Shown here: piece by piece, positions 3,773-19,510 of the stretch | Numbering within the stretch: the stretch's first letter is position 1 | Layout: each line of letters opens with the position of its first letter | DNA from: Bacteroidales bacterium | Lineage (GTDB): Bacteria; Bacteroidota; Bacteroidia; Bacteroidales; Dysgonomonadaceae | Direction of reading: 5' to 3' | NCBI GenBank assembly: GCA_012513315.1 | Contig: JAAZCL010000346.1 | Coordinates: 1-36,597 of the forward strand | DNA length: 36,597 bases | The notes under the pieces: generated by a model | Seen by the model: only the letters and a program-made list of their open reading frames with translations | Database searches by the model: none | Told to the model about the DNA's origin: nothing | Translations under genes and position numbers: made by a program

Positions 3773-3818
3773 ATATTTAATTACAAATAACCGGTCATAG
3801 AGTTCCGGTTATTTGCTT

Positions 3819-4817
3819 ATGAAAAGCTATAAGTTATACAGAACTAAAGTGAAGAATGTACTAAAAACGCTACTTTCATTATTGCTCGGATTATTAATTA
3901 TTTGGGCAATGTATCGTAACACTGATCTTAGCGAATTGTGGGAAATTGCCAAATCCGCTAACTTCGTCATAATAGGCGCTTCTTTAATATTTGGGTTAAT
4001 CGGGAACATCATTAGAGGCTTACGATGGGAGCTTTTTGTGAATTCACTTGGTTATCATCCTCCCAGAACTAGCCTAGTATATGCAACCTTAGGCAATTAT
4101 GCCGTAAACTTTGTGCTTCCCCGTGCCGGAGACTTATGGAGGGTTGGTGTAGTTAGCAAATATGATAAAATACCCCTTTCTAAAACATTCGAAACATTCA
4201 TTATCGACAAGGCCGTAGATATAGTGGCAGGTTTGTCAATAATATTTATAAGTATAGTGCTTTATGCAGAATTCTTCATTTCATATATCAATGATCATCC
4301 TCAATTTTCAGAAAGCATCTCAAATCTTTTTAGTTCTGCATGGGTTTACATTGGCTTAGCTGCAATTCTTATTGTAATTGTACTTATGTTCACAGTTTTT
4401 AAAAGAACCGCTTTCATGTTAAAGTTGATTAGCTTTCTTAAAACAGTTAAGTACGACTTGAAAATTATATCTGGAATGAAAGAGAAAAAGCGAATAATAA
4501 TCTATACTATACTACTTTGGTTATGTTTTTATTTGTATTTTTACATTTGCTTTTTTGCGTTTGACTTCACCAAAGATCTTGGTCCGCTAGCAGGACTAAT
4601 AGTTTTTGCGATGACAAACATCGGTATTTCGGTTCCCGTGCAGGGAGGAATTGGTCCCTGGCACTTTGTGGTAATCACTTCATTAGTTATTCTTGGCGTG
4701 GCAGAAAATCAGGCACTTGCCTTTGCCGGCGCCGTTTTCGCAATACAGTCTATTTGGCAAATTCTATATGGTCTTTATGGTGTATTAGCTATGCCATTTG
4801 TTAAGCGACGAAATTAA
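3819..4817 (+). CDS. Lysylphosphatidylglycerol synthase TM-domain / UPF0104 flippase-like membrane protein
   Basis: Multi-TM protein with LPRAGDLWRVGVVSKY and VPVQGGIGPWH typical of UPF0104; ATG at 3819 preferred over TTG at 3813. Confidence 0.88.
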   Translation: MKSYKLYRTKVKNVLKTLLSLLLGLLIIWAMYRNTDLSELWEIAKSANFVIIGASLIFGLIGNIIRGLRWELFVNSLGYHPPRTSLVYATLGNYAVNFVLPRAGDLWRVGVVSKYDKIPLSKTFETFIIDKAVDIVAGLSIIFISIVLYAEFFISYINDHPQFSESISNLFSSAWVYIGLAAILIVIVLMFTVFKRTAFMLKLISFLKTVKYDLKIISGMKEKKRIIIYTILLWLCFYLYFYICFFAFDFTKDLGPLAGLIVFAMTNIGISVPVQGGIGPWHFVVITSLVILGVAENQALAFAGAVFAIQSIWQILYGLYGVLAMPFVKRRN

Positions 4818-16813: not shown

Positions 16814-16842
16814 GCAACGTTTTCTTCTTTAATTCATCTATA
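16814..16842 (+). promoter_or_regulatory. Candidate ECF-sigma promoter (autoregulatory)
   Basis: GCAACGTTTT (16814-16823) and CATCTATA (16835-16842), just upstream of the ECF sigma start; not the TAnnTTTG type. Confidence 0.45.
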
Positions 16843-16859: not shown

Positions 16860-17426
16860 ATGGATGACTCGCAACTGATAATAGCGTGTAAGAAACAGAA
16901 CCGTGATGCACAGAAAGCATTATATGAGAAATATGCTCCTATAATGATGGCTGTATGCATTCGTTATACCGGGGATGGTGAGATTGCACGAGATTTGTTG
17001 CACGATGGGTTCATCAGGGTTTTTATGCAGATAGGCTCTTATTCGGGCAAGGGATCTTTTGAAGGATGGCTAAGACGCATATTTGTAAATTTAGCGTTGG
17101 AGAATTTCCGCAAGGAAAAAAAGAAACATCAGTTCATGGAAGAGTATAGTTATATACAAAACACTGAATCTGATTATGCAACAGAAAATTTACTTGAGAT
17201 TGAAGATATTCCTCGTGAAGAAGTATTAGAAATGATAAAATCACTTCCACCGGGTTATAGAACAGTATTTAACCTCTTTATATTTGAGGATATGTCACAC
17301 AGGGAGATTGCCGAAGAACTGGGTATAAGTGAAGCTTCTTCACGTTCACAGTTTTATAGAGCTAAAAGCCAGTTGAAGAAAAAGATTACAGCCATTATTT
17401 CAAAGAACAAACTAAGACAGCTATAA
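16860..17426 (+). CDS. RNA polymerase sigma-70 factor, ECF subfamily
   Basis: 188 aa; region 2 LLHDGFIRVFMQIGSYSGKGSFEGWLRRIFVNLALENFRK and region 4 LPPGYRTVFNLFIFEDMSHREIAEELGISEASSRSQFYRAK. Confidence 0.95.
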   Translation: MDDSQLIIACKKQNRDAQKALYEKYAPIMMAVCIRYTGDGEIARDLLHDGFIRVFMQIGSYSGKGSFEGWLRRIFVNLALENFRKEKKKHQFMEEYSYIQNTESDYATENLLEIEDIPREEVLEMIKSLPPGYRTVFNLFIFEDMSHREIAEELGISEASSRSQFYRAKSQLKKKITAIISKNKLRQL

Positions 17427-18691
17427 TGAATTCAGATAATGAAATAAAGAAGCAATTTAAATCGAAATTCGACGATTTTAAAGTTCCAATACCAGCTGAT
17501 GGATGGGACCAGATAGAGGAGTCGTTAAATTCGATTGTTGTTGTACAAAACAATAATGTTCGCAGGATTTGGCGAATTGTTGGTTCTGTAGCAGCTATTG
17601 CTGTTTTGATTATAGGAAGTTTGTTATTCTTAAAACCTCCAATTGTGCAGGAGGATGCATATATTTCTGATGCAACCGAAAAAACAAGTAGTGTTAAAGC
17701 GGATAAATCTGAATCTGTAAAACAGTCAAGCTCTTCAGTTATAGATAAACCAACTAATGAGGAGTTGTTTGTTACAAAAAGCAGTAATATAAATAAAAAG
17801 GTTGATTTCATTTTGGGAGCCAATAAAGAGATTGTTCTGGCTGAAGTATTGGAGACTCTGGCTGAAGTACAAGAAAGTTATGCTCAAGAAACAGCCTCTT
17901 TTGATATAACAGATGATAAAGTAATTGAGGAGATAACTTTAATCATACAGGAACAAGAACATTTATTAGCAGAGCAATTTGTTGAACGAGGTAACAATGA
18001 TTTAATTTTGTCTTTTGGAGGCAAGGGCGGTCTAACCTCTTTTTATCAGTCTATTAATACCCCAATGACATTGCGAAGCGCAACTGTTGCTAGTGATAAC
18101 CAGTTTTTAGACGAGTCGGAAAAAATGTTGTTTCAACAAAATATTTTAAAAGATAATATTGCCGAGATGGAGCACAATCAGCCAGTTTCATTTGGTGTAA
18201 CTGTTTCAAAATCAATAATTGAAGGTCTTTATTTAGAAACTGGACTAGTGTATTCATACCTCTACTCTAAGAGTAAAAACACCAGTGCTATTTTGCAAAA
18301 CCGCCAGACACAGAGCTTACACTATTTAGGCATCCCTTTAAATCTCAATTATAACCTGTTTTCTCTGAGAAATTTAAATGTTTATGCATCTCTTGGAGGA
18401 ATGATTGAGAAAGATGTTTACGGTAAATTTCGTGAGGAGGGTGAAGGCGAGTCAATTGATGATGAAATGAAATCTGAATTTTTGCGTAATGAAACTATTT
18501 CTCAGCGTAATCCTCAATTGTCTGTTAATGCTGGGTTAGGATTGTCTTATCCTTTATATAGAGATTTAAAGTTATACGGAAAGATAGGTGGAGCATATTA
18601 TTTTGATGCAAAAAATGATTTTAAAACCATATACTCAGATAGCAAAATTGTTATGGATTTGAGCATTGGTATTAGATATGAATTTAAATAA
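17426..18691 (+). CDS. Anti-sigma-like protein with TM helix and C-terminal outer-membrane beta-barrel (Dma-like)
   Basis: 421 aa; TAATG overlap with the sigma gene; short cytosolic N-terminus, TM IVGSVAAIAVLIIGSLLFL, periplasmic linker, then alternating beta-strands SFGVTVSKSIIEGLYLETGLVYSYLYSK...LSIGIRYEFK. Confidence 0.82.
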   Translation: MNSDNEIKKQFKSKFDDFKVPIPADGWDQIEESLNSIVVVQNNNVRRIWRIVGSVAAIAVLIIGSLLFLKPPIVQEDAYISDATEKTSSVKADKSESVKQSSSSVIDKPTNEELFVTKSSNINKKVDFILGANKEIVLAEVLETLAEVQESYAQETASFDITDDKVIEEITLIIQEQEHLLAEQFVERGNNDLILSFGGKGGLTSFYQSINTPMTLRSATVASDNQFLDESEKMLFQQNILKDNIAEMEHNQPVSFGVTVSKSIIEGLYLETGLVYSYLYSKSKNTSAILQNRQTQSLHYLGIPLNLNYNLFSLRNLNVYASLGGMIEKDVYGKFREEGEGESIDDEMKSEFLRNETISQRNPQLSVNAGLGLSYPLYRDLKLYGKIGGAYYFDAKNDFKTIYSDSKIVMDLSIGIRYEFK

Positions 18692-18711
18692 CAATAAAAA
18701 TAAATTAATTT

Positions 18712-19449
18712 ATGAAGAAATCGATTTTATTTTCAGCAATTATAGGCGCTCTTCTTTTTATGACATCATGTTTAGGAGAAGTAAGTAGCAACTATGCTGA
18801 TACTACTTTTGTTTATATTGACACAGATGATGTGGGTACTGTTTATGGAAAAACAATATCACCCATGGCAAGAGTTATTATTTCTAATGAAATGATTTTG
18901 ATGAATCCCAATAGAATAAAAGTTATGAGCTATAGCTGGGATGAGGAGAATGGCACGAAACCTATAACCATATCGGGTCAAATGTATCAAGCCGATTATG
19001 TTAAACTTACAGGTGAGACAGTAGATATTAATAACACATCTTTAAGAATGACTGAAATGCCAGAAGTAGAAGAGCAATTGAGCTTTCTGGATTTTAAAGA
19101 CCCCCTATTTGCCAGTACAGCCGACTTTATGGGTGATAATTGGATCTTCCAGTACTCTTATGAACTACCTAAAGGTCAGACAGCTGCTGTTCAGTTTTTC
19201 AAAAGAACTCCAACTGATGAGAATAGTTCAAATGTCTTCATTGATGTGAATCTTGTTTATAGCGGAACACCTTCTGGAACAGATGTAGAAAGGAAAACAG
19301 ATTATCTTGCGTTAGATATGCGCATGTTGAGGAGCCAGTATGCGAATTCAAATCATGAAGAATTAAAGATAAAATTTGTTTACCATCTGAAGGATAGAGC
19401 TGAGCCAATTGAGTCACCCACATATTCTATGTTACTCAAAGAAAATTGA
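18712..19449 (+). CDS. NigD-like lipoprotein
   Basis: 245 aa; signal/lipobox LLFMTSC; conserved pattern of NigD-like proteins; 20 bp after the barrel gene. Confidence 0.85.
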   Translation: MKKSILFSAIIGALLFMTSCLGEVSSNYADTTFVYIDTDDVGTVYGKTISPMARVIISNEMILMNPNRIKVMSYSWDEENGTKPITISGQMYQADYVKLTGETVDINNTSLRMTEMPEVEEQLSFLDFKDPLFASTADFMGDNWIFQYSYELPKGQTAAVQFFKRTPTDENSSNVFIDVNLVYSGTPSGTDVERKTDYLALDMRMLRSQYANSNHEELKIKFVYHLKDRAEPIESPTYSMLLKEN

Positions 19450-19470: not shown

Positions 19471-19510
19471 AGCTGCAGCATCTTCAAAGGATGTTGCAGC
19501 TTTTTTTTTA
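19471..19510 (+). terminator. Rho-independent terminator closing the sigma/anti-sigma/NigD unit
   Basis: AGCTGCAGCATC ttcaaag GATGTTGCAGCT + TTTTTTTTT. Confidence 0.9.

Follow-up and report, generated by a model that had tools for sequence, protein, structure and literature searches.

Anti-sigma factors of the Dma type are described as spanning both membranes, and the operon presented here bears on what such proteins may sense and control beyond Bacteroides. B. thetaiotaomicron releases more vesicles when either Dma1 or Dma2 is lost, in the case of Dma1 via NigD1 (PMC13088901). In P. vulgatus, the EcfO-Reo system answers antibacterial toxins and has a regulon that includes three nigD genes (PMC9308784, PMC13114119). 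We analysed a stretch of 36,597 nucleotides, hereafter the window, from a MAG near Fermentimonas (its anti-sigma protein is 84% identical to that of NTP30). The architecture of the operon and its conservation, the folds of its barrel and lipoprotein, the promoter motif and the genes behind this motif were all computed.

The operon and its predicted anti-sigma protein

The operon lies on the forward strand and starts with a gene for a Das-like ECF sigma factor of 188 aa (16860..17426), which matches Pfam Sigma70_r2 (1.3e-14) and Sigma70_r4_2 (5.9e-17), is 97% identical to its counterpart in Fermentimonas NTP30 and was placed in the sigma tree described below. This gene shares one base (TAATG) with the anti-sigma ORF (17426-18691, 421 aa), which is followed by a lipoprotein gene (18712..19449, 245 aa) and by an intrinsic terminator at the operon end, comprising a 14-pair hairpin and a T-run (19471..19509, z = -3.7). 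Both the one-base overlap and the strong terminator had been pointed out in the first-pass annotation and were recovered here. No RNA element was found in the operon at Rfam thresholds, and matches to Sigma-70-type promoters were at chance level.

The synteny search that the same annotation had proposed revealed that the SIG-DMA-LIPO order is retained genus-wide. In nearly all genus loci examined, pn13-LpxK-SppA diverges from SIG-DMA-LIPO-Yip1-SmpB, and Petrimonas-like genomes also keep SppA-SIG-DMA-LIPO. Genus-wide conservation of the gene order and of all three proteins shows that the three-gene unit is not a product of chance. Matches to the Dma alignment were obtained in 103 of 148 genomes of the order, some of them covering part of the alignment length only. 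Elsewhere in the window, two separate genes (144-1043 and 3813-4817) match the C-terminal and TM halves of lysylphosphatidylglycerol synthase.

With regard to the anti-sigma protein, the single TM helix, the linker of about 120 residues and the strand-rich C-terminus read earlier from the sequence were all found again. The N-terminus (aa 1-50, 17426..17575) is short, conserved (P23, W27) and helical in the AF2 model, and is probably the sigma-binding part. The TM helix (aa 51-69, 17576..17632) has a mean KD of 2.72, and the 15 residues preceding it hold three K/R and no D/E, which indicates an N-in orientation according to the positive-inside rule; the protein exhibits no second hydrophobic segment. 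The periplasmic tether (aa 70-192, 17633..18001) comprises 123 aa, mostly with a pLDDT below 50, and measures 112-177 aa in relatives, mostly 115-146 aa. In an extended conformation, it could by our estimate bridge the periplasm. The remainder (aa 193-421 plus the stop codon, 18002..18691) is predicted to form an outer-membrane beta-barrel. The AF2 model, built from a 41-row alignment and called for in the first-pass annotation, contains helices at 3-16 and 26-68 and strands within aa 193-420, mostly of high confidence, eight of which are long and form an OmpA-like barrel (counted by eye from the DSSP line). The confidence is modest for the N-terminus (pLDDT of about 70) and the overall pTM is 0.52. 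Foldseek matches of the model include OmpA, OmpW and OmpX, and Pfam OMP_b-brl_2/OMP_b-brl, narrowly below the threshold in the window protein, is matched in 40 of the 41 relatives scanned. Of the features described for the Dma family, a TM helix, a long disordered tether and a C-terminal beta-barrel are seen here, next to an ECF sigma gene in a member of the Bacteroidota. The family description further comprises an N-terminal sigma-binding domain, to which aa 1-50 may correspond, a neighbouring sigma gene of the ECF21 family and a restriction to Bacteroidota. The model therefore supports a predicted Dma-type dual-membrane architecture for the anti-sigma protein.

With its TM helix and its long disordered linker, an anti-sigma protein of this type is also a plausible protease substrate, and the peptidase gene SppA is a conserved divergent neighbour of the operon. 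The barrel might then not signal through direct linkage; instead, stress would cause the anti-sigma protein to be degraded step by step, as happens in RseA-type systems. We consider this possible but doubtful: SppA is a common housekeeping gene, the promoter motif described below does not face it, and neither a cleavage site nor a dedicated protease was seen. The release of the sigma factor upon outer-membrane disturbance, which we infer, may occur by pull or by proteolysis.

The lipoprotein in the third position

The product of the third gene exhibits a lipobox (...FMTSC) and may be placed at the cell surface. It had been annotated as a NigD-type lipoprotein, which holds for its fold and fails for its sequence. 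Searches of Pfam (NigD_N/NigD_C), NCBIfam (NF051862), profiles and PDB sequences revealed no NigD, and in a profile comparison with true NigD proteins only the signal peptide aligns. The structural model, which is confident (pLDDT 89.6), matches 19 PDB chains with E<1e-3, 18 of which are NigD-like or BF3042-type proteins (5bmt, 3nqi, 3qwn, 4pqx, 4j8q), the remaining one being 3k0y, a 'putative toxin related protein'. The best fold match, 5bmt, matches with 332 bits (1.7e-98) the lipoprotein encoded in third position in a sigma-Dma-lipoprotein operon of genome G137, and this G137 lipoprotein matches Pfam NigD_N-like at 2.9e-26. The third-gene lipoproteins of two other relatives show weak matches to NF051862 (5e-7 and 1e-6). 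These fold matches, together with the NigD matches in G137 and the other relatives, indicate that the slot holds NigD-fold proteins, which in the window have diverged past sequence recognition. In other clades, the position after the Dma gene is occupied by LVIVD-repeat lipoproteins or DUF4943 proteins (L069, L075, L156, L158, L178; L188, L189).

The third-gene lipoprotein could serve the barrel as a ligand or a feedback sensor instead of being an output of the circuit. In all members of the clade, the lipoprotein gene adjoins that of the barrel, and other clades fill this slot with other lipoproteins (NigD-like, DUF4943, LVIVD), both of which would suit such a role. It nevertheless appears rather unlikely, as an unlinked NigD gene under the same promoter motif, described below, fits an output role.

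Promoter motif and candidate regulon

A predicted autoregulatory ECF promoter, GCAACGTTT-N12-CATCTA, precedes the sigma gene (16814..16840, forward strand) and is the sole exact match in the window. The consensus GCARCNTTT-N12-CRTCTA also precedes the sigma gene in orthologues, including those of Petrimonas and Dysgonomonas, a few of which carry at most one mismatch, and the exact motif was found before 33 of the 34 orthologous loci of the genus. This position and this conservation suggest that the window sigma factor reads the motif. Across 39 genus genomes, we counted 97 exact sites, about ten of which are expected by chance, against 10 sites for a reversed-pattern control. They comprise 33 sites at the window locus, 17 at a NigD gene, 17 at a small-protein gene (hand count) and 30 others, which include TIGR04134-type lipoproteins (6) and a few envelope proteins. 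Outside the genus, exact sites were at background (3 versus 4 for the control in 16 genomes), so the regulon is supported for this genus only.

The source genome has three exact sites: one at the window operon and one each ahead of a gene on contigs C260 and C376. The C260 gene, unlinked to the window operon, encodes a true NigD (Pfam NigD_N, 4e-16; NigD_C, 3e-26) of the NigD1/NigD2 family (NF051862, 5.1e-61). NigD genes with the exact motif were found in 17 genomes, 126-226 bp ahead of the NigD_N domain, and none of the exact genus sites faces a NigD gene in the opposite orientation. Nineteen further NigD genes with readable upstream DNA exhibit the motif with at most one mismatch and a spacing of 12 or 13, a near-motif that occurred in 1 of 570 shuffled sequences. 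The C376 gene (G000:C376:718-929, L210), which lies between tilS-like and serS-like genes, encodes a protein of 44 aa that contains a single hydrophobic stretch and matches no family of Pfam or NCBIfam. Conserved small membrane proteins of this kind (44-47 aa), with the exact motif upstream, are encoded at 16 other loci (e.g. L244, L251, L268) and are essentially absent outside the genus. The motif is also present ahead of putative radical-SAM-associated lipoproteins (L241, L247, L254, L259, L269, L278; TIGR04134 for the one scanned). The regulon, previously stated to be unknown, is thereby narrowed by the genus-wide motif comparison to a set of motif-bearing candidate genes.

It is improbable that another ECF sigma factor reads the motif and that the window operon is merely included among its targets. 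Such a situation would agree with genome G030 (90% complete; C73, C93, C103), where the motif is kept before NigD and the small-protein gene and no window-type sigma factor was detected, perhaps due to an assembly gap. The conservation of the motif is, however, highest before the window sigma gene (33 of 34 loci), and relatives of the window sigma factor in Petrimonas and Dysgonomonas are also preceded by it.

A second locus and comparison with described systems

The gene order had been taken to match that of Das1/Dma1/NigD1, but the genus paralogue of that system is a separate locus, in which sigma and Dma are preceded by NigD, all on one strand. The source genome holds just the end of the Dma gene of this second locus, at the edge of contig C454, and its sister genome likewise breaks at this gene. 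Contig breaks inside dma1-type genes were observed in several assemblies (G000:C454 start; G031:C2 end; G001:C56 and C298). The linked NigD promoters of the Das1-type loci exhibit GCAAG upstream in 18 of 19 cases and the window motif in none. In the sigma tree, which has some long branches and a root for drawing only, the window group (32 rows) falls within a 58-row clade (support 100/99), outside which both the Das1-type and the DUF4943-linked rows lie. The earlier view of a divergent homologous locus therefore stands as far as a Dma-type unit is concerned, and not for identity with the Das1/Dma1/NigD1 locus, given the distinct clade, locus and promoter.

Although the three kinds of protein are the same, including a NigD-fold lipoprotein, and the EcfO regulon likewise includes nigD genes (PMC13114119), it is very improbable that the window operon is the local orthologue of Das1-Dma1-NigD1 (EcfO-Reo), an orthology contradicted by the separate NigD-SIG-DMA locus that these genus genomes also carry (in the source, partially on C454), by the position of the window sigma factor in another 58-row clade (100/99) and by the different promoter codes. 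Identity with DUF4943/Dma2 was also rejected, because the source genome has no DUF4943 match and the sigma factor falls outside that cluster. The best explanation is that the window operon is paralogous to Das1-Dma1 and uses a promoter code of its own, so that two Dma circuits, each with its own NigD, run side by side in the genus. Our verdict is that the window unit is a genuine Dma-type unit on a branch for which we found no description.

We consider it probable that the operon in the window is autoregulated and of the Dma kind, with release on disturbance and a small regulon. The cytosolic N-terminus of the anti-sigma protein would keep the sigma factor at the inner membrane, and the tether of the same protein would run through the periplasm to the outer-membrane barrel. 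If the barrel or the outer membrane were disturbed, the sigma factor would be freed and would then transcribe its own operon together with a small regulon, comprising the unlinked gene of the NigD1/NigD2-family lipoprotein, the gene of the 44-47 aa membrane protein and some envelope genes that are lineage-specific. The most likely role of the operon is an envelope-stress response. A role in vesicle formation, to which the NigD1/NigD2 family is tied in B. thetaiotaomicron, may be considered as a lead. The candidate regulon would place a lipoprotein of this family under a second circuit. More tentatively, the two Dma circuits could have non-overlapping promoter codes and each drive its own NigD1/NigD2-family lipoprotein, with the window circuit also driving the 44-47 aa membrane protein, which is undescribed, and with the NigD-fold lipoprotein of the operon serving as the barrel ligand. 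What is new is the promoter code GCARCNTTT-N12-CRTCTA, which defines a candidate regulon. This conserved code, together with a short target list and 5bmt as a structural anchor, makes the regulon directly testable.

The G137 operon has the same order as the window and its sigma factor belongs to the same 58-row clade, with a third gene close to PARMER_03598 (PDB 5bmt). The exact motif was not found in the G137 genome, and its lipoprotein matches Pfam NigD_N-like, whereas that of the window does not. Das2-Dma2-BT_1557 of B. thetaiotaomicron also shares the order sigma, anti-sigma, third gene (PMC13088901), but its third gene encodes a DUF4943 protein instead of a NigD fold, and the sigma factors of the DUF4943-linked loci (G187 and G095, treated as Dma2-like solely because DUF4943 follows their Dma gene) fall outside the window clade. 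In contrast to the window, where the lipoprotein gene is third and the -35 element is GCARC, the Das1-type loci of the genus have NigD upstream of sigma and GCAAG as the -35 element; the operon lipoprotein of the window is, moreover, NigD-like by fold only, unlike that of Das1-Dma1-NigD1. Nevertheless, Das1-Dma1-NigD1 of B. thetaiotaomicron and EcfO-Reo of B. fragilis and P. vulgatus combine, like the window, an ECF sigma factor with an anti-sigma protein comprising a TM helix, a tether and a barrel, and have NigD lipoproteins in their regulon, as does the candidate regulon of the window (PMC13088901, PMC9308784, PMC13114119).
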